Assembly: GCA_020718845.1 (NCBI GenBank)
Contig: DYRG01000021.1
Span: 7,648-46,745, forward strand
Source of the DNA: Thiomargarita sp.
GTDB taxonomy: Bacteria; Pseudomonadota; Gammaproteobacteria; Beggiatoales; Beggiatoaceae
Direction: 5' to 3'
DNA: 39,098 nucleotides
Shown: piece by piece, positions 13,506 to 36,562 of the stretch
How the letters are laid out: every line of letters starts with the position of its first letter
Numbering within the stretch: position 1 is the first letter of the stretch
Position numbers and translations under genes: made by a program
The notes under the pieces: model-generated
The model's database searches: none
Told to the model about the DNA's origin: nothing
What the model saw: only the letters and a program-made list of their open reading frames with translations

Positions 13506-13555
13506 TCAAACCTGTGCTAAACTTATCTGCATTACTTAACCAAAGGAGAATTGAC

Positions 13556-16198
13556 GTGATTACTAAACATATTTACTGGCTTATGCTGGTAATTTTTAAT
13601 AGCGTTGTGGCTCAAGATTTAACAATTTTAAATGATCCACCAGTTGCTCCAAATAGCCTAATAGGATTACCCTCTTCACCCATTAGAGCAATGGCAATTC
13701 AAGGTTTTGAGGTAAATGCTCAAAGTCGTGAAGAAGTGCGTAATTTCTACAACACTATTTTTCAAGCATCAGAAAATGTACCTGCTCAATGGACTGGAAA
13801 CACAAATTCATGTAATGCTGGAACGATTTCTCAAACCTATCAGGATGCGACTTTATTAAGAGTAAATTATTTTCGAGCAATGGCAGGTGTCCCAGCTAAT
13901 ATTACTTTTGATGAAACTAACAATGCAAAAGCTCAAAAAGCAGCATTAATAATGTTAGCAAATAATTCATTAAGTCATACTCCTCCAACTTCTTGGAAAT
14001 GTTATAGTGATGAAGGATATGAAGCCGCAGGAAAATCTAATCTTTCTTTGGGAAATTCTGGAGCAAATGCGGTTTTTGGACAAATGCAAGATGAAGGTGA
14101 TAATAATTACTATGTTGGACATCGCCGTTGGATTTTATATCCTCAAACTCAAATCATGGGTGCTGGAAGCGTTCAAACTGAAAGCTGGCAGGGAGCAAAT
14201 GCGTTATGGGTTTTTGATGATAATATGTGGAAAACTCGACCTAATGTTAGAGATGAATTTGTGAGTTGGCCCCCCAAAGGTTATGTGCCTAATTCATTGG
14301 TATTTGGACGTTGGTCATTTTCTTATCCTAATGCTGATTTTACTAATGCAAGTATTTCAATGCAACGTCAAGGAAAATCTATTTCTCTTACGAAAGAAAT
14401 TCCTAAAAATGGTGCGGGTGAAAATACCTTAGTATGGATTCCTAATTTGTCCTCTTTTTCCTCTATTGCAGACGATGTTACTTACACGGTAAATATTCAG
14501 GATGTGTTAATTCAAGGAATATCTCGTAATTTCAATTATACCGTCACCGCAATTGATCCTTCAAAATATGGTACAGATACAGTTTTACCAACCATTTCTG
14601 GAATAGATCAACCAGTGCTTAATAAAATCAATGCTTATTCATTGACAACTGTTCCAAAATCAACAGGTTATGAATGGCAATCTGCCCAATTAAAAGATTT
14701 TACTCAAACCGAAGGGGCAGAAAATGGATTAAATAACTTTACGACAAATACTTTAGGAGATTATGAAGTTATTATTTCAGATATTAAAGCAACTGGAAAT
14801 AAAAGTTTTCATTTGACTCATACACAACCCCAAGATCAAATTCTCACTTTTAAGCCCAAATTATTTGTTAATAATGGAGCACAACTCCAATTTGCAAGCC
14901 GCTTAGGATTAGCTTCTACAGCACAATTTGCGAAAGTACAAATTTCTACTGATGATGGGCAATCTTGGAAAAGCATTTTTGAGCAAGCTGGTAATGATTC
15001 TAGTGGAGAAACTTCTTTTTCTACTAAAACACTTAATCTAAATGAATTTGCAAATAAAACTGTTCAAATTCGTTTTATATATTATTATGAAATGGGAGGG
15101 ATGTATTATTATCAAAGTTCTAATGCTGTTGGTTGGTACATTGATGATATACGATTTACTAATGTTTCAGAGATTACAAATTCTGTAAAAACTAGTATTT
15201 CTAGCCCATCATTTTCTTTTACGCCAACTCAAAACAATACTCGCTATGTTTTGCAAGCAAGAGCGGTTGTATATAACAAATATCCATTAGAATGGGGGCA
15301 AGGTAAAATTGTAACTGTAGGTAGTAATGATACAATTCCCACAACACCTATTTCTCCCGTTACACCAACACCAGTTATACCAACGCCTACCACAGGGTTT
15401 CAAATTACTCCAGATATTTGGATCAATGCTAGCATTAATAGTGTAGAAAAAGGATTAATTAATGCGGTTTGGAAGCAGGGAGGAAGTGATAATACAAGTC
15501 GAGGAGATAAAGTTATTTGGGGACATTTCTATGCAAATCCCAATGATGTTAGTTGGGGAAGTGAGCAAAATCCCGATTTATTTGTTAAAGTATGGTTTGA
15601 TGTGAGTGGAAGAATTGATGTAAATTATTTCCACGTTTCTGTGCCCGATATTCAAGTGCAAAGTAATAAGAAAAATGGTACAAAATTGTCGAGCACCGCT
15701 ACTTTAACTGATCGTTATGTACGACATTATTTTAATGCGGATGATACTCAAAACAGTGCTGTTGAGAAAACAAAAGAAATTTTGAATATAAACAGCTATT
15801 TATCTCAATCTAAAAAGTATTCTTATCATACAGCGATTCCTTCTACATATATTTTAACAATGGAGAAAGGAACGATTGCTGGGCAATTATTTGATGGAGG
15901 TTCTGCATTAACAAAACGAGGAGATTTTGTTTATTGGGGATATTTCTACGCGGATTCTAAACAAGTTTCTTGGGGTAGTTTAAATAATCCCGAAGTTTTC
16001 TTTAAAATTTGGCGTGACGCAGCAACAGGACGTTATGATGTAAATTTCTTCCATGTTTCTGTACCAGATATTGAGGTAGATTCAAAACTTGCTTTTGGAA
16101 CATCTAGCACTTCTTTATTAGTAGATAATACTACGCTTTCTTCGAGCAAAGTTACATTACAACAACGTTATACTCGGCATGAATATCATTTGAATTAA
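13556..16198 (+). CDS. Exported CAP-domain protein with jelly-roll module and tandem novel C-terminal domains
   Basis: 880 residues from GTG at 13556, chosen for AAGGAG at 13543-13548 and because a signal peptide (MITKHIYWLMLVIFNSVVA) then starts the protein. Domains: a CAP/SCP-like domain about 95-205 (LLRVNYFRAMAGVPANITFD, NSLSHTPP with H141, GHRRWILYP with H189); a beta region to about 340; a jelly-roll module about 375-540 ending GWYIDDIRFTNV, as in MAM-like/choice-of-anchor modules; a Thr/Pro linker (595-613); then two copies of a domain with core RGD-x-V-x-WG-x-FYA and DVN-x-FHVSVP. The same tandem pair ends the glycoside hydrolase at 17238. Likely a secreted or surface protein. Function unknown; CAP domains occur in adhesins, proteases and lipid-binding proteins. 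Confidence 0.85.
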   Translation: MITKHIYWLMLVIFNSVVAQDLTILNDPPVAPNSLIGLPSSPIRAMAIQGFEVNAQSREEVRNFYNTIFQASENVPAQWTGNTNSCNAGTISQTYQDATLLRVNYFRAMAGVPANITFDETNNAKAQKAALIMLANNSLSHTPPTSWKCYSDEGYEAAGKSNLSLGNSGANAVFGQMQDEGDNNYYVGHRRWILYPQTQIMGAGSVQTESWQGANALWVFDDNMWKTRPNVRDEFVSWPPKGYVPNSLVFGRWSFSYPNADFTNASISMQRQGKSISLTKEIPKNGAGENTLVWIPNLSSFSSIADDVTYTVNIQDVLIQGISRNFNYTVTAIDPSKYGTDTVLPTISGIDQPVLNKINAYSLTTVPKSTGYEWQSAQLKDFTQTEGAENGLNNFTTNTLGDYEVIISDIKATGNKSFHLTHTQPQDQILTFKPKLFVNNGAQLQFASRLGLASTAQFAKVQISTDDGQSWKSIFEQAGNDSSGETSFSTKTLNLNEFANKTVQIRFIYYYEMGGMYYYQSSNAVGWYIDDIRFTNVSEITNSVKTSISSPSFSFTPTQNNTRYVLQARAVVYNKYPLEWGQGKIVTVGSNDTIPTTPISPVTPTPVIPTPTTGFQITPDIWINASINSVEKGLINAVWKQGGSDNTSRGDKVIWGHFYANPNDVSWGSEQNPDLFVKVWFDVSGRIDVNYFHVSVPDIQVQSNKKNGTKLSSTATLTDRYVRHYFNADDTQNSAVEKTKEILNINSYLSQSKKYSYHTAIPSTYILTMEKGTIAGQLFDGGSALTKRGDFVYWGYFYADSKQVSWGSLNNPEVFFKIWRDAATGRYDVNFFHVSVPDIEVDSKLAFGTSSTSLLVDNTTLSSSKVTLQQRYTRHEYHLN
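15395..15736 (+). repeat. Shared C-terminal domain, copy 1 of the CAP protein
   Basis: Residues 614-727. Core motifs: INAVWKQGG, SRGDKVIWGHFYANPNDVSW, NPDLFVKVWFDVSGRIDVNY, FHVSVPDIQV and terminal RYVRHYF. It is most like the first copy in the glycoside hydrolase, with which it shares PDxWINA and NAVWKQGG. Confidence 0.85.
15848..16195 (+). repeat. Shared C-terminal domain, copy 2 of the CAP protein
   Basis: Residues 765-880. Core motifs: EKGTIAGQLFDGG, KRGDFVYWGYFYADSKQVSW, NPEVFFKIW, GRYDVNFFHVSVPDIEV and terminal RYTRHEYHLN. The RY-x-R/Q-H-x-Y ending is common to all four copies in the window with small changes. Confidence 0.85.
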
Positions 16199-16266
16199 GG
16201 GTAATGAACCAACTAAAATAACGCCTCGTTTTATACCCGTAATGTTGGCAAATTACTCAAAGAAAA

Positions 16267-16312
16267 AACGGCTTCTTTTCAAATGGGGATTCCATTACTA
16301 AAGAAAGCCGTT
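16267..16312 (-). terminator. Terminator of bamD
   Basis: Arms AACGGCTTCTTT (16267-16278) and AAAGAAAGCCGTT (16300-16312) pair with one bulged base; the loop contains a further AATGG/CCATT pairing. On the minus strand the hairpin is followed by a T-rich run (complement of 16261-16268), as expected downstream of bamD. The rest of the 166-bp gap shows nothing else I can name. Confidence 0.6.
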
Positions 16313-16364
16313 AATCATAAGCAATCGTTATATTTAACTTCTCAAAGCATTTTCAGATTAAAAA

Positions 16365-17174
16365 CTAACGTAGTTTTAAAGGAGCTAGTTCTGCGGTTAA
16401 AGGCGGTATTTCTCTAATGTCTGTTGCTACTTCGGTATAATCAGAATGGTTTAACTTCAAGACTTTAAGTGTATTTTCAGACAAATCTTCGTAGCCCATT
16501 TTCTTATAGGCTTTTGCTAAAATTATTAAAGCATCTGGAGCAGCGGGCGTTCTATTAAAATGTTGAACCACATATTGAGCACGATTTGCGGCAGCTAAAT
16601 ATGCACTTCTTCTCATGTAGAAATCCGCAACGTTTAATTCATATTGAGCAAGTTGATTTCTCAAATAAATCATACGTTGTTTTGCATCATCGGCATAAGT
16701 GCTTTCTGGAAAGAGTTTCAACAACTCAGAAAAATTTTGAAAAGAACGTCGCGTAGCTGCTTGATCTCGTTCACTTAAATTCAACGGTAAATAACGTTCA
16801 ATTAATCCAAAATTCTCATTAAAATGCGCTAATCCCCGCATATAATACGCATAATCAACTTTGGGATGACGCGGATACAATTTAATGAAACGATCTGATG
16901 CCGCAATTGCCGATTCTGCTTCCTCAAATTTGTAATACGCATAAATCATATCTAATTGAGCCTGTTGCGCAAAAGTGCCCAATGGATAGCGCGCTTCCAA
17001 AATTTCGTAATATTTAATTGCCGTTTCGTAATCCCCTTCAGTCAACGCGGTTTTGGCAGCCGTTTGAATTTGTTGCGGAGTCCAATTTTTCGTTTCATCG
17101 CGTGGTTCTTTAAACAACGCACAACCTGTCAATTGCAGTGCAATTACAAAAAAAACTATATTTTTCAAATACAT
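16365..17174 (-). CDS. bamD: Outer-membrane assembly lipoprotein BamD (ComL/YfiO)
   Basis: Essential lipoprotein of the BAM complex that inserts beta-barrel proteins into the outer membrane. 269 residues. Signal MYLKNIVFFVIALQLTG with lipidated C18; then TPR-like helical repeats: AAKTALTEGDYETAIKYYE, LEARYPLGTFAQQAQLDMIY, FIKLYPRHPKVDYAYYMRGL, FSELLKLFPESTYADDAKQR and NVADFYMRRSAYLAAANRAQ, the last being a strong BamD signature. It lies 63 bp downstream of the glycoside hydrolase gene on the same strand, and a terminator follows it. Confidence 0.96.
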   Translation of the reverse strand: MYLKNIVFFVIALQLTGCALFKEPRDETKNWTPQQIQTAAKTALTEGDYETAIKYYEILEARYPLGTFAQQAQLDMIYAYYKFEEAESAIAASDRFIKLYPRHPKVDYAYYMRGLAHFNENFGLIERYLPLNLSERDQAATRRSFQNFSELLKLFPESTYADDAKQRMIYLRNQLAQYELNVADFYMRRSAYLAAANRAQYVVQHFNRTPAAPDALIILAKAYKKMGYEDLSENTLKVLKLNHSDYTEVATDIREIPPLTAELAPLKLR

Positions 17175-17237
17175 ACTAAAAAATCCTCATAATAAAACAA
17201 ACAGAGTTAGCAAATAAAACCGCCGCTAATCTACTTT

Positions 17238-20200
17238 CTATGGTTTGTAGTGGTGTTGGGCATAACGTTCCTTTTCAGTTACGATGGTTGCTGCACCGTA
17301 AGTTTTTGAACGTCCTGAATAAACAGTGATATTTGGTGCAGAAACGTGAAAGAAATTTACATCAATTCGATTTTCTGCGTTGTCATACCAAAACTTTACA
17401 TAAACATCGGGATTTTGTTCACTACCCCAATTAACATCCTTTGGATCGGCGTAGAAATACCCCCAAGCAACTTGATCACCACGTCCTGTCGTTCCAGAAC
17501 CCCCATTTTTCCAAACGCCCTCAATGGTTTTACCATCATCTAGTTGAAATATTCCTCCCAGTTCCACTTGTTGAAAAGGAAGTAGATAGTGTTTGGGATC
17601 ATCTTGTACTTTTCCAGAACCAAGCACGGGAGTATTTAGTAACTCTGCAACCTCAAGCTTATTTTCCTTAGGTTTGTACGCATGGCGCGCATAGCGTTTT
17701 ATTTGGGTAGTAATGTGATTAGAAGGAGAACAATTATTTACAGGTTTCATACAGCTGAATACCTCAATATTAGGTACAGAAACATGGAAAAAATTTACAT
17801 CAACTCGCCCACTTGTGTCAAACCAAATTTTAACAAAAGCATCGGGATTATTTTCATTTCCCCAAGTTACTTCTGTTGGATTAGCGTAGAAATAACCCCA
17901 AATTACACGATCACCTCTTTCTAGGGTTTGATCGCCTCCTTGTTTCCAAACCGCGTTAATTGTTCCTTTTTCCTCTGTATGAATAACGGCATTAATCCAA
18001 GTATCTGGGGTTACTAAATAGCCTACATTTTGTGTATTACTATTTGATATTCCCTTAATAACAACTGCAACGCTGTCAGAAACCTGTTTAAAATTAATTA
18101 CTGCATTAGTTTTAATCGATGATTTTCCTTCAAATAAAACTTGACCATTTTCAGGATTAATAATTTGAACAGAGGCTTCCCCGCTTGGAAGAGAAGGTAA
18201 CATCAAATTATTAATGGGTTTCTTCTCTGGATTATAAAGATAAATCGTTGCATTTGTTCCATCTTGTCGTACATAAGCGCGTAGGTTGTTTTGGGCAGCG
18301 TAATGATCAACTGTTAATTTATCCCCTCGCCATTTAATTCCATCCACTGCTTTCTTAAAAAACTTCAAATAAGAACGTTTGGTATCGCTAATTTGGTTAA
18401 TGGTATCTCGAGAGATTTGCTTTCTTAAATCAGCGGGCCAACCCAAATTAGCTCCCGCACCACCAGACACAAAATGTAACCATGCACTATCGCGAAATAT
18501 TTGATTATCTTTAGACTCATCAAATCCATTATCACCATATCCCTTTCGGTATAAGTGTGCGTTGGGTGAACTTTCTCCATCTTGCATTGGACGACCATCA
18601 CGAATTTGGTAGAAACCATAACTAATTCCTCGAGCCATTTCCGTTGGTGGAGAAAATTCAGCAGAAGATATTTCCCAAGGATTAGCAATATGTGCGTAAT
18701 AAGCATGTGTTACCGCCATATCAATGTTATGTAAGCGATAAGCTAGTTCTGCATCCATTCCTAAATAACTTGATTCGGTCATGTTTTCATTAGTTAATTC
18801 ATTTGCAGTTGTACCAATTGCTGCGCGATAAAAAGTGCTATCTTTGGGGTCCCAAGTTAGAAATGAATAAAATACCAAATGATTACGATCCATATCTTGA
18901 ACATAGTTAGACATTTCAATTAACCATTTCTTACGTTTTTCATAAGAAGCAGTATTAAAACGTTCTTTGTTGTCGATTTCATTCACAATATCCCAACCAA
19001 ATACATTAGGATCGTCACGGTATCTTTCTAATAGAGGTTTCATACGTTCTTTGTGCGCAGCATATAAATATTCTTCAAAAAAATCATCAGGATGTTGCGC
19101 ACCATTATTTTTTACCCACAAGGTATCTGACCACTTTTTGCCAGTCCCTCTAAAATTGTCGTCTTTGTAATAAAAAGTATCATACAAGCGAAATAAAACA
19201 TATACATCATTTTGACGAGCAAGATGCAATATATTGTCAAGAAATTTAATAACTTCATTTTGTTTCTGATCCAATAAGACAGGAGATGCATCTAAATCCA
19301 GTGATTCTACGAAAACAGTAAGAACATTGATACCATTTTCCTTTAATTTTTTGAAATACCGTTCAGCAACACTCACACCTTCAACAGGTTCTGTTGAAAT
19401 CAGAGAGCGTCCTTCGTTGTATGTACAATTATCGGTTGGGTCACGATCAGAAGGTGTTAACAAAGCAACTGTCTTACTTTGTCCATTTGTAAAAAAGCAG
19501 TAATGAAAAATCTTTTCAGCACTATAGTTTCTCCAAATACCAGAGATAGACTCTCCTTTTTTATTTTTACCATCTGAACTTGTGCAAGATTTAGCACGTT
19601 CCCATTGAGAATCATAAGGCGGTTTTGTAAAAAACTCTGAAGGATGTTCATCGCATAATTCACCAGGATACAAACCTCTCAATGGTAACCAAGGCATTAA
19701 GCCCGTTTCTCCAACAATTACAAAAGGAGTTCCATCACTTAAAACAAGTGCTCGTCCTGTAGGTGAAGTTGTAATGAATGGTTTTCTATCATCATTTTTT
19801 GTATCATTTTCTGTAACTAATATATCCTCACTCATTCTCCCGAATTCGTCGACCGCTCTTATTGCAAAAGTATAATGCTTTCCAGGTGTTAAACCAATAA
19901 CATCAAACTCTTGCCATTGCCCTGGTGAAACAGGTTTATAAGCCTGTTCAAATTCAGTCATTTGTTGCCAAGTATCTTTATTAACATGGAAACTACCTTC
20001 TTTGTAACGAACCGCATAACGATAAACACTTCCACCGTTTCCACGTTTTGGAGCTTTAAGTTGAATTCTTACCCTTCTTCCATCGACTGCTGAAGCAGAC
20101 CAACTATTGATCTCTTTTGATTCAAAAAAAGGTAAAGAATTTTCAGAAGGATTTACTAAAATAAATGCTTGCCATTCTTTTGGGTGAAAACGGTCTCCAT

Positions 20201-21077
20201 GATAAACAGTCCATTCATTTTTCATAATGCCATTAGGAGATTCTATTCCAATAGCATTTTGCATCATGCCATCAAATCTTGGAAGAATTAGCCCCTTATC
20301 ATCAGCATGAATACGATAAAAATTCATCCATAAAGGTGTTCCATCTTTCACAGGAAAACGAACAGGAATAACGCCATCCCCAATCGGGCAATTTTGTCCT
20401 TCAACGATTTTTTTATCAATTTTTGTTCCAACTAATTCCCAAGGAATGGCTGCTTCAAAACGCCATTCGTTGTTATCATAATGATGAGAAAATTTAATTA
20501 TTGTATTTTGAGGTGTTGGCTCAGGTTGTTTTGCCACACAAGGTTTCTGCCACATCCATAAATTAGTATTAAAGAAATCACCCGGATCATTAATTTTATT
20601 GATTGCATTGCCAGGTTTTTCTAAACCCGTTGTCATTTGACAACTCTCATTTTTCCAACACCCACGATCAAATCGGCGATACTTTCCTGTTGGTGTAAAT
20701 GCTAAAACACGGGAATTTTCATCTAGTTTATTAGGCAGTGGATAAGTTGGATGAAAATAAATTTCTAAACTATCACTATTCCAAGTTTGACTAACATCAC
20801 TATGGGCACTTCCATCTTCTTGAAAAGAATTATCTTGCAATTTTCCAGATACATATAAATAATTATTATCCCACATCGTCCATAAGTCGGTGAATTGATC
20901 GTTACCATAAAAACGAGCCATTCTCAAATGACCTAATTCATGCCACTCATTAGCCTCCATTACACCGTCAATTCTGGGCGTTCCAAATGGGATGAAGTTA
21001 TCTGCAAAACCTTGGGGAGTTATAAAAAATGCTAATGATATAACGGTAAGTAGACGTTCTACTTTAGAGAGTAACAT
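17238..21077 (-). CDS. Large exported glycoside hydrolase (clan GH-A, GH5-like) with CBM9-like, FN3 and tandem novel domains
   Basis: 1279 residues. Signal peptide 1-25 (ending PQGFA). A CBM9/DOMON-like beta-sandwich at about 28-305 starts with RIDGVMEANEW. An FN3 module lies at about 325-420. The TIM barrel (about 430-910) shows the acid/base Glu in FGWDIVNEID (E700), a HAYYAH strand (791-796) and the likely nucleophile in RPMQDGESS (E835), followed by a WLHFVSGGAGANLGWP strand. An insertion at about 470-560 has four Cys (C475, C498, C527, C551). A small beta domain (910-1010) precedes two copies of the domain also found in the CAP protein. ATG at 21077 has AGGAG seven bases upstream. The substrate is unknown; a polysaccharide of the cell's own matrix or of its surroundings is possible. 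Confidence 0.85.
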   Translation of the reverse strand: MLLSKVERLLTVISLAFFITPQGFADNFIPFGTPRIDGVMEANEWHELGHLRMARFYGNDQFTDLWTMWDNNYLYVSGKLQDNSFQEDGSAHSDVSQTWNSDSLEIYFHPTYPLPNKLDENSRVLAFTPTGKYRRFDRGCWKNESCQMTTGLEKPGNAINKINDPGDFFNTNLWMWQKPCVAKQPEPTPQNTIIKFSHHYDNNEWRFEAAIPWELVGTKIDKKIVEGQNCPIGDGVIPVRFPVKDGTPLWMNFYRIHADDKGLILPRFDGMMQNAIGIESPNGIMKNEWTVYHGDRFHPKEWQAFILVNPSENSLPFFESKEINSWSASAVDGRRVRIQLKAPKRGNGGSVYRYAVRYKEGSFHVNKDTWQQMTEFEQAYKPVSPGQWQEFDVIGLTPGKHYTFAIRAVDEFGRMSEDILVTENDTKNDDRKPFITTSPTGRALVLSDGTPFVIVGETGLMPWLPLRGLYPGELCDEHPSEFFTKPPYDSQWERAKSCTSSDGKNKKGESISGIWRNYSAEKIFHYCFFTNGQSKTVALLTPSDRDPTDNCTYNEGRSLISTEPVEGVSVAERYFKKLKENGINVLTVFVESLDLDASPVLLDQKQNEVIKFLDNILHLARQNDVYVLFRLYDTFYYKDDNFRGTGKKWSDTLWVKNNGAQHPDDFFEEYLYAAHKERMKPLLERYRDDPNVFGWDIVNEIDNKERFNTASYEKRKKWLIEMSNYVQDMDRNHLVFYSFLTWDPKDSTFYRAAIGTTANELTNENMTESSYLGMDAELAYRLHNIDMAVTHAYYAHIANPWEISSAEFSPPTEMARGISYGFYQIRDGRPMQDGESSPNAHLYRKGYGDNGFDESKDNQIFRDSAWLHFVSGGAGANLGWPADLRKQISRDTINQISDTKRSYLKFFKKAVDGIKWRGDKLTVDHYAAQNNLRAYVRQDGTNATIYLYNPEKKPINNLMLPSLPSGEASVQIINPENGQVLFEGKSSIKTNAVINFKQVSDSVAVVIKGISNSNTQNVGYLVTPDTWINAVIHTEEKGTINAVWKQGGDQTLERGDRVIWGYFYANPTEVTWGNENNPDAFVKIWFDTSGRVDVNFFHVSVPNIEVFSCMKPVNNCSPSNHITTQIKRYARHAYKPKENKLEVAELLNTPVLGSGKVQDDPKHYLLPFQQVELGGIFQLDDGKTIEGVWKNGGSGTTGRGDQVAWGYFYADPKDVNWGSEQNPDVYVKFWYDNAENRIDVNFFHVSAPNITVYSGRSKTYGAATIVTEKERYAQHHYKP
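17241..17558 (-). repeat. Shared C-terminal domain, copy 2 of the glycoside hydrolase
   Basis: Residues 1174-1279. Core motifs: KTIEGVWKNGG, GRGDQVAWGYFYADPKDVNW, NPDVYVKFWYD, RIDVNFFHVSAPNITV and terminal RYAQHHYKP. It is the extreme C-terminus of the protein. Confidence 0.85.
17673..18026 (-). repeat. Shared C-terminal domain, copy 1 of the glycoside hydrolase
   Basis: Residues 1018-1135. Core motifs: TPDTWINAVIHTEEKGTINA, WKQGG, ERGDRVIWGYFYANPTEVTW, NPDAFVKIWFD, GRVDVNFFHVSVPNIEV and terminal RYARHAY. It carries two extra Cys (C1109, C1116) not found in the other copies. Confidence 0.85.
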
Positions 21078-33356: not shown

Positions 33357-33968
33357 CTAAGACTTTTTCTCAGATGTTTCAGGTTTTTTATCATCATCGG
33401 ACGTTTTTTGGGGTTCTTCGGGTTCGTCGGGTTCGGTGTGGGCGATGCCTTTATGACATTCGATACAAGTTTTGCCTTCTTCTTGGGCACGAGTGTGTTT
33501 TTTACGCGCACTTCCGTCTTGATCTTCGAGTTTCATCGCGTCCCAACTGTGGCAATTACGACATTCTCTCGAATCACTGGCTTTCATTTTATCCCACACG
33601 GCGTTTGCCATTTGCCAACGACGGGCTTCGTATTTTTCGGGTGTTGAGATTGTGCCCATGACTTCGTGATAAACGTCTTTGGCAGCCATCACTTTGGCGA
33701 AGAGTTTTGGACCCAATTGTTTGGGAACGTGGCAATCCGCGCAGCCAACCCGCACGCCGATCCGATGCGAATAGTGAGAGGTTTTCTTTAATTCTTCCAA
33801 ATTAACTTTCATGGTGTGACAACTGGTACAAAATTCAGTTGTGTTGGTGGCATCGAGCGCGGCACTAAATACGACGGTAAAAATTGCTCCGGCGGTAAAG
33901 ATTGCAAGCGCATAAATGGCGATGGTTCGAGTGGAGCGGCGGGGATTATCCGACTTTTGCTCTGGCAT
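33357..33968 (-). CDS. NapC/NirT-type membrane-anchored tetrahaem cytochrome c
   Basis: 203 residues. One N-terminal helix (about 16-37) anchors a periplasmic domain with four haem motifs: CTSCH (47-51), CADCH (76-80), CRNCH (136-140) and CIECH (168-172). HTMKVNLEELKKTSHYSHRIG and GVRVGCADCHVPKQLGPKLFAK are hallmarks of the NapC/NirT/NrfH family, which pass electrons between the quinone pool and periplasmic enzymes. The C-terminal 30 residues are a charged, low-complexity tail. First gene of the operon with fccA (43 bp) and fccB; GAGGAG precedes the ATG. Functionally it may connect FccAB to quinone. It has no nitrate or nitrite reductase neighbour. Confidence 0.9.
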   Translation of the reverse strand: MPEQKSDNPRRSTRTIAIYALAIFTAGAIFTVVFSAALDATNTTEFCTSCHTMKVNLEELKKTSHYSHRIGVRVGCADCHVPKQLGPKLFAKVMAAKDVYHEVMGTISTPEKYEARRWQMANAVWDKMKASDSRECRNCHSWDAMKLEDQDGSARKKHTRAQEEGKTCIECHKGIAHTEPDEPEEPQKTSDDDKKPETSEKKS

Positions 33969-34123
33969 TCTGGTTCTCCTCAGATGATGGGGGCTACTTT
34001 ATGGTAAGATGTTACTCTTATTTAAGACAAACGAACCCATTGTACAAAAAAGTCACTAGAGTACAAATAATAAAATTCTATAACCTGCACGTCTTCCCTT
34101 TAGGAAAACCACATTTCACCCGC

Positions 34124-36562
34124 ATGACGAATCCATCTTCGACAGATATTTTGCGCAAAACCCGCCGTTTAACAGGGAGTTTGGCGATTTTAGCGTTATT
34201 TTTGGGGATTGTGGGCGCGTACAATTTTATGGCTTATCGAGAGGCACAACAGCAAATTTTTTTCGCCGAAGAGGCAAAACGTAAAGCCCAACACAAAGCC
34301 GCACTCTCAGATCAAGCCGCTCAACGCGCCGCCCAGCAAGTTCAACTCGCCCTTCAAGAAAAAAATTATGCCTTTTACACTCAATCGCTATTTTTAACCT
34401 CATTAAGTGAACGTGAAACCGCCAAAGGCAATGCAACCGATGGGGCTTTGTTAGCTTTAGAAGCCCTTCCCAAAAATATGACAAGTCCAGATCGACCTTT
34501 TTTAATGCAAACCGAAATTAGTTTGCGCCAAGCCCTTGATAAACTTTATGAAAAACAATTATTTCGCGGGCACAAAGAAGAAATTTGGCAACTTATTTTA
34601 AGTCCCGACGGCAAAACCTTAGCGAGCGCGTCGGCGGATCACACGGTAAAATTATGGGAAATCTCGACGGGCAATCTGAAACATTCTTTACAACACGACG
34701 ATCAAGTCTGGGAAATCGCTTTTAATTCAACGGGTTCACAACTTTTAAGCGCGTCACTTGATTACAATGCGCGTTTATGGTCGGTTGACAGTGGCGAACT
34801 TTTGGCAATTTTTCCGCATCAAAAAGAAGTCTATACTGTTGTTTTTATTGATAATTTAATCGTCAGCGCGGACGCGGGCGGCACAATCAAAATTTGGGAA
34901 AATGGGCAATCCAAAACCATTTCAAATGCGCATCGAAGCGCGATCCATAAATTGAGCGTAAGTCCTGATTCTAAAACGTTTTTAAGCGCGTCACAGGATT
35001 TCACCGCTAAATTATGGGATTTAAACGGCAAAACTTTGCAAACGTTTAAAGGTCATCAAGCCTCTGTAAATACAGCGATTTTTTCGCCCGACGGCAAATT
35101 AATTTTAACTGCCAGTGCCGATCATCAAGCGTTTTTATGGGATGTATTTACAGGTAAAGTATTGAAAAAATTAGAATTTAATGATGAAATTAATGGTGCA
35201 GTATTTCATGGGGATCAAATTTTGTTATTTGGCGCGGGAAATACGGCAGAATTATGGACAATATCTGGCACAAAAACCGCTATTTTCAAGCATGATCAAG
35301 GACTTACCGAAGCAAAATTCAACGCGGATGGTTCTCAGATTTTGACCAGTTCTGAAGATGGCACATTAAAAATCTGGAAAAATTCGGGCGGATTGATCAC
35401 GACTTTAGCGGGTCACGATGGCGAAGTTTATGATGGTCTTTTTTATAAAGAAAATCAAATACTTAGCGCGGGCGAAGATGCGCGAATTCGACGGTGGGAA
35501 TTAAAAAGTAGCCATCATTTAGCGGAGGTTTCGTCGTTTCGAGGTGCGGTGTTCAATTCGAGCGGTCAAAAAATGATTCTTTTCAATGAATTAGGCGCAA
35601 ATCTTTTAAATGTCGAGAATGGCGAACTTCTTCACAAATTGACCGATCAACCCATTGTTTCTGCGGCATTTAGTTTTGATGGACAAATGATCGCGGTTGG
35701 TGGAAGTGATGGAAAAGCGCAACTCTTTGATTTAACTGGACAATTAGTAGCCACTTTTCAAAATGATTTTGAGCAAATTTCAAAACTTTCTTTTAGTCCA
35801 AATGGTCAACGTTTATTAGTTTTATCGTCTGAAGGCGTGCGATTGTGGGAAACCTTGCGACCTTTTGATTTAACTATATTTATCGAGGGAAAATTTACAA
35901 CGGCGGGTTTAAGTTCCGATGGTCAAATGCTTTTCACCGCTGACGAATTAGGGCAAATTGTATTTTGGGAAGGGGCGGAAGCCTTTCGAACCATCGACGC
36001 GCATTCTCAAGCGATCAATCAAGTTATTTTTAGTCCCGATGGAAGCAAATTTTTGAGTATTTCCAAAGACTTAACCGCCAAACTTTGGCACACCGACAGC
36101 GGGCATTTTTTAACAACTTTAAGCGGACACAACGGCGAATTGCGTCACGCGGCATTTGCCCCGACTGGCGATAAAATCCTCACCACAGCAGCGGACGGAA
36201 CAGCGCGTTTGTGGGATGGTTTCAGCGGCGCGCCGTTGGGGGTATTGCGAGGGCACAAAGGCGTTGTTTTATCTGGAAAATTTAGCGCGGACGGGCTTCG
36301 AGCGGTGACTTCGGGCGACGACGGCGACGTGAAATTGTGGGACATCAAAACTACTCACGAAATCGCAACTTTAGCGAAAAAAGCCTTGATTGTGGGGATA
36401 AATCGCCAATTAACGCGCTTCGTGACTTGTCATGAAACGCACGCGACTTTATGGTCGATGTTTCCCGACACCCAAAGCATCATCAATCGTGCACAACAAA
36501 TTTTACCGCGCCCTTTAAGTGCCGAACGCCGAGTGCGTTTTTTCTTAAAAGATGGTATGTAA
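34124..36562 (+). CDS. Membrane-anchored WD40-repeat protein resembling the C-terminal half of STAND/WD40 proteins
   Basis: 812 residues from ATG at 34124; the open frame reaches further upstream but that part overlaps the divergent cytochrome gene and looks non-coding, and the Shine-Dalgarno is weak. Order: basic DILRKTRRLTGS, one TM helix (17-34), a coiled coil (36-82), a helical ATDGALLALEALP segment, then about 15 WD40 repeats from 148 (WD-type ends such as HTVKLWE, TAKLWD, GTARLWD, GDVKLWD), enough for two propellers, and a tail (AQQILPRPLSAERRVRFFL). This layout is what follows the NTPase in bacterial nSTAND-WD40 proteins, but no NTPase, peptidase or TIR domain is present. Likely a scaffold or sensor. 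The restriction enzyme gene begins 16 bp downstream, so the two may be co-transcribed. Confidence 0.85.
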   Translation: MTNPSSTDILRKTRRLTGSLAILALFLGIVGAYNFMAYREAQQQIFFAEEAKRKAQHKAALSDQAAQRAAQQVQLALQEKNYAFYTQSLFLTSLSERETAKGNATDGALLALEALPKNMTSPDRPFLMQTEISLRQALDKLYEKQLFRGHKEEIWQLILSPDGKTLASASADHTVKLWEISTGNLKHSLQHDDQVWEIAFNSTGSQLLSASLDYNARLWSVDSGELLAIFPHQKEVYTVVFIDNLIVSADAGGTIKIWENGQSKTISNAHRSAIHKLSVSPDSKTFLSASQDFTAKLWDLNGKTLQTFKGHQASVNTAIFSPDGKLILTASADHQAFLWDVFTGKVLKKLEFNDEINGAVFHGDQILLFGAGNTAELWTISGTKTAIFKHDQGLTEAKFNADGSQILTSSEDGTLKIWKNSGGLITTLAGHDGEVYDGLFYKENQILSAGEDARIRRWELKSSHHLAEVSSFRGAVFNSSGQKMILFNELGANLLNVENGELLHKLTDQPIVSAAFSFDGQMIAVGGSDGKAQLFDLTGQLVATFQNDFEQISKLSFSPNGQRLLVLSSEGVRLWETLRPFDLTIFIEGKFTTAGLSSDGQMLFTADELGQIVFWEGAEAFRTIDAHSQAINQVIFSPDGSKFLSISKDLTAKLWHTDSGHFLTTLSGHNGELRHAAFAPTGDKILTTAADGTARLWDGFSGAPLGVLRGHKGVVLSGKFSADGLRAVTSGDDGDVKLWDIKTTHEIATLAKKALIVGINRQLTRFVTCHETHATLWSMFPDTQSIINRAQQILPRPLSAERRVRFFLKDGM

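Follow-up and report, generated by a model that had tools for sequence, protein, structure and literature searches.

Two genes that converge in the window (the whole stretch of 39,098 nucleotides of Thiomargarita sp. DNA that was analysed) encode exported proteins, one of the CAP superfamily and one resembling CBM9-bearing glycoside hydrolases, and each protein has a signal-peptide-like stretch at its start and a pair of domains of about 110 residues at its end (Table 1). The four copies, two closing each protein, are where the first-pass annotation had put them according to the profile positions, and their motifs come in the order it described. The length of 880 residues that it gave for the CAP protein implies a later start than the GTG of the 894-residue frame. 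The copies are 46–59% identical to one another in pairwise comparison (BLASTP E 8e-31 to 1e-51, far beyond chance). When the domains are masked, no BLASTP similarity links the CAP protein and the glycoside-hydrolase-like (GH) protein, and the remainders of the two proteins are thus unrelated, as had been proposed. The description of the domain as aromatic-rich also stands (F, W and Y make up 14% of it against a background of 9%). [The GH protein additionally has Pfam matches to fn3, at 7e-4 and under the cut-off, and weakly to DUF4434, at 0.004.]

Table 1. Genes and domain copies at the locus, in coordinates of the window (GH, glycoside-hydrolase-like; aa, amino acids).
Feature	Coordinates	Strand	Description and evidence
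CAP-superfamily exported protein	13514..16198	+	894 aa, GTG start; C-terminal domain pair; ORF and PF00188 5.7e-11
CAP domain, aa 116-233 of CAP protein	13859..14212	+	Pfam
CAP protein domain copy 1, aa 626-742	15389..15739	+	profile 5.1e-62; identities
Inter-domain linker, CAP pair	15740..15817	+	profile match boundaries
CAP protein domain copy 2, aa 769-893	15818..16192	+	profile 5.6e-54
bamD	16365..17174	-	PF13525 2e-67; neighbour only, judged outside the system
GH protein domain copy 2, aa 1160-1279	17241..17600	-	profile 8.1e-59
Inter-domain linker, GH pair	17601..17669	-	profile match boundaries
GH protein domain copy 1, aa 1017-1136	17670..18029	-	profile 4.7e-62
Exported CBM9 / glycoside-hydrolase-like protein	17238..21077	-	1279 aa; C-terminal domain pair; ORF, CBM9_1 1.6e-6, homologue with Cellulase/GH5

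Between the 3′ ends of the two genes lies bamD, on which they had been said to converge. It is not near any other carrier locus that was fetched, so that its neighbourhood here is probably incidental, and a meaning for the adjacency was rejected on this ground. The genome to which the window belongs (2.98 Mb in 123 contigs) has 12 matches to the domain, which amount to full pairs in five proteins, one of them truncated where its contig stops, with fragments at two contig edges in addition. Elsewhere in the window (33902-36562, + strand) is an 886-residue frame whose sole match is a sub-threshold one to the NCBIfam T9SS sorting domain.

The domain family is new and unnamed, and is of a known functional kind. 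Neither the whole proteins nor 50-copy alignments gave anything above cut-off for it in Pfam, NCBIfam or PHROGs (the Pfam search covered two alignments, each of 50 domain copies and overlapping in part), in agreement with the first-pass annotation, which knew no name for it. The only recurrent Pfam family was VinK_C, below its cut-off and over about 19 residues; in one case the whole-protein sum reached 27.2 against a cut-off of 27, although each stretch by itself fell short. It was judged a chance match in view of the all-beta prediction for the domain and of the fragmentary coverage. A description of the domain was not found in a literature search, and plasmids and phages contained no copies. 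AlphaFold predicts a single domain to be eight-stranded and all-beta (pLDDT 96.3), and the prediction for the pair (pLDDT 95.7) has a pTM of 0.92, from which the two halves would have a defined and confident placement relative to each other. There was no significant match to the domain in the PDB by sequence or by fold, and none with E below 1e-3 in Foldseek searches of PDB and BFVD; propeller-like Foldseek matches were discarded with an rmsd near 19 Å. The best of the weak fold neighbours are beta-sandwich portions of carbohydrate enzymes, with VIA Z up to 6.2, a value common among unrelated beta-protein models. With such scores the fold family cannot be named, nor can a new fold be claimed.

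Two other resemblances were noted. Residues 511-558 of Vip4 share a short NPE-x-F-x-K ... V-S-V stretch with the domain (E 0.014 with the best profile), but it covers just 48 of 116 positions and is not significant for a family claim. A gammaproteobacterial contig (G793:C45, 4847-5620; L153 and L154) encodes domains of about 100 residues in tandem, with FxVEVxWRDF ... WEMLVK ... NPLG, that were retrieved with a bait sequence which itself has no Pfam match. Like the present domain, they form a C-terminal pair, there on a beta-propeller/PKD protein, and have a short N-x-E-x-x-V-K motif. However, hhalign gives the comparison a probability of 0.5% and a score of 13.6, within a shuffled range that extends to 17.8. 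A resemblance to an 'N-V-E-L-V-V-K-V-L-D-G' domain is accordingly not supported by hhalign with shuffles, for which the natural pair came from G793 and comprised only two natural sequences.

Pairing is the rule among the relatives, as the window copies had suggested: 87 of 114 distinct carriers have exactly two copies. A divergent subfamily (GGD ... NFFHVG ... RHDY) often has a single copy, but its partners (CAP and LVIVD propeller) are of kinds that the pair has too. In 40 of 78 pairs the linker has 32 residues, within a range of 24 to 60. A tree of 185 copies largely separates first from second copies, with 9 label changes where shuffles give about 61 (having few columns for many rows, the tree is unreliable at single forks). 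By this separation the pair is an old duplication that moves as a single module, and for the most part it has not been re-duplicated protein by protein. What it is attached to has changed far more than the module itself. The catalytic parts of the GH protein of the window and of its homologues outside the family are 23–25% identical, whereas the figures are 57–64% for domain 1 and 43–52% for domain 2. Similarly, the non-domain parts of two CAP carriers cannot be aligned (E 1.4), but their domains are 76% and 71% identical. The module is thus under a common constraint that its partners escape.

The partners of the 114 carriers form about 59 groups with no relation to one another, an upper estimate since each open or short frame was counted as a separate group. 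Partners include S41, C1 and M4 peptidases, CAP proteins, propellers of the NHL, RCC1, LVIVD and Vgb types, PKD and Ig arrays, VWA and GH5-like proteins with CBM9; most of the groups are not CAZymes, and the domain also occurs on CBM9/GH homologues in other genomes. At several loci (L049, L070, L082 and L096) carrier genes are adjacent. The first of these (G006:C44, 3572-17860) has five on the same strand within 14 kb, with RCC1, NHL, GH, Excalibur-type and one other partner, and between them a gene for a beta-helix protein on the opposite strand. L096 and L098 (JAUCGI010000002.1, 38211-50558 and 53034-65381, Desulfobacterales HSG2) appear to be an identical inverted duplicate on one contig, with two carriers of S41-peptidase type, either a real repeat or an assembly artefact. 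In L135 (5923-7776) and L114 (3073-4284) an apparent frameshift or stop in or between the copies breaks the carrier genes, through assembly error or decay.

That carriers are exported, a proposed check, is upheld by a hydrophobic N-terminal stretch in 83% of them versus 38% of control frames. The position in the window had further suggested a domain tied to the extreme C-terminus, and with it a signal for export or surface sorting read by a secretion or anchoring machine. The T9SS C-terminal sorting domain (TIGR04183) is likewise a common beta domain on many unrelated exported proteins, and in complete gammaproteobacterial carriers the pair is indeed C-terminal in 21 of 28. However, in the full set of 90 complete carriers, 47 have it at the C-terminus, 30 at the N-terminus after the signal peptide and 13 at an internal position. 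The tie to the C-terminus thus fails in 43 of 90, and a sorting signal of the classical, strictly C-terminal form is excluded, internal positions being found, but in proteins of exported type. The present domain is also in bacterial groups other than those of the T9SS domain, and no NCBIfam family, the TIGR04183 sorting model included, matched any of 50 copies at E up to 0.1. The carriers moreover have an N-terminal signal of their own. Of the 42 species in the window's family, 40 have a type II secretin that scores over its cut-off, non-carriers as commonly as carriers, and co-occurrence with so nearly universal a secretion system is uninformative. Sorting in any form is very unlikely to be what the module does.

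The conserved residues suggest where a ligand might bind. Nine positions are invariant in 50 copies (G43, W54, N59, P60, K65, W67, V81, R110 and H114). Strands C, D and E are conserved on both faces, one of them hydrophobic (V40, W42, V64, I66, V76 and F78) and the opposite one near-invariant (G43, F45, K65, W67, D75, N77 and F79); strands A and F, by contrast, vary on this second face. The simplest reading is of a core face and a ligand face, with the conserved patch presumably exposed to solvent, judging from the alternation of residues. The RGD of the shared motif was considered as an integrin-binding site and rejected because it opens a strand and the divergent subfamily has GGD in its place. 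A structural spacer or stabilising domain that has no ligand would be in keeping with the very common accessory role of all-beta domains and with the PKD and Ig-like arrays among the partners, but it is hard to reconcile with conservation far above that of the partner, polar residues on the presumed outer face included, or with the fixed pairing and linker, and is highly improbable.

The best explanation, to which we give a probability of about one half, is that the window copies are two instances of a rigid, non-catalytic extracellular tethering module of about 255 residues, whose shared ligand belongs to the matrix or surface and is most likely a glycan. Shuffled as one unit onto many unrelated exported proteins, it would offer one conserved patch on each beta-domain, and the twin may thereby gain avidity for a single common ligand. 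Peptidases, glycosidases, CAP proteins and beta-propellers would in this way be tethered to the same extracellular place. The ligand may well be a glycan in the sheath, mucilage or biofilm matrix of the cell itself, the likeliest choice since the carriers may share that habitat. The mean net charge of the module across carriers is −15 (−1 and −5 for the window pairs), which argues against an anionic glycan. The action would be that of a tandem carbohydrate-binding module outside any known CBM family. Such modules are also small, non-catalytic, aromatic-rich beta domains, at either end of exported enzymes and in tandem. In the present case, however, neither 50-copy alignment matched a CBM profile in Pfam, most carriers are not glycosidases, and the polysaccharide binding that was the other suggestion of the first-pass annotation is something we only infer.

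The main rival is a protein as ligand, the twin docking on a dedicated surface or scaffold protein in the manner of cohesin and dockerin and so assembling exported enzymes on the cell. Dockerin and cohesin too involve a duplicated unit as a common tag on many exported enzymes, and cohesin/dockerin adhesion modules have been reported in consortial sulfate reducers (PMC10553843). The very different proteins that bear the domain (with up to 31 copies in one genome), the adjacent carrier genes and the strong conservation irrespective of partner would all suit docking. The present domain, however, is a beta domain of about 110 residues rather than a short calcium repeat; predicted to be all-beta, it gave no Pfam match to dockerin with either 50-copy alignment, and there is no cohesin match either. 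In L049, the cluster with five carriers, the non-carrier genes that were tested (encoding the beta-helix protein, a solute-binding protein, a permease fragment, DUFs and one protein with no match) yielded no receptor candidate. Docking is a tentative and somewhat unlikely alternative to a glycan-binding tether.

The distribution is patchy. In the window's family (the Beggiatoaceae group, which takes in metagenome-assembled genomes, MAGs, named Thiomargarita and Thiotrichaceae) 12 of 42 species have the domain and 30 lack it. When 369 genomes were sampled evenly across the class, matches were confined to the window's genome and one other of its family. The order of one sulfate-reducing carrier has 11 positive genomes of 242, some Desulfobacterales having as many as 31 copies in a genome, and in 395 sampled genomes of its phylum the query genome alone was positive. 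[One carrier MAG is labelled Methylomonas (JALXCS; L111 and L134), the name of a methanotroph, by mis-binning or through transfer.] The named scan relied on one exact peptide pattern; it may therefore overlook divergent relatives in other groups, and close copies are favoured in the carrier set.

Beggiatoaceae have a mucous sheath to which other bacteria attach, and for Desulfonema a host-specific association with them has been reported and horizontal gene transfer between the two suggested (PMC8612568; PMC6390638), though the carriers found here are not shown to be Desulfonema. An unlikely but specific extension of the tether would have the module serve as an address for the sheath or mat matrix of giant sulfur bacteria, both in Beggiatoaceae, which make the sheath, and in sulfate reducers dwelling in or on it. 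The two groups would have exchanged the module, and its copies would have grown to dozens. If this were true, two phyla would have one shared code for matrix attachment. An unnamed but well-delimited family labels many exported proteins of ecologically important, mostly uncultured bacteria of the sulfur cycle. To know its ligand would be to know what holds these exported enzymes in place, and a single protein module would then offer a test of the reported exchange, physical as well as genetic, of giant sulfur oxidisers with filamentous or consortial sulfate reducers.
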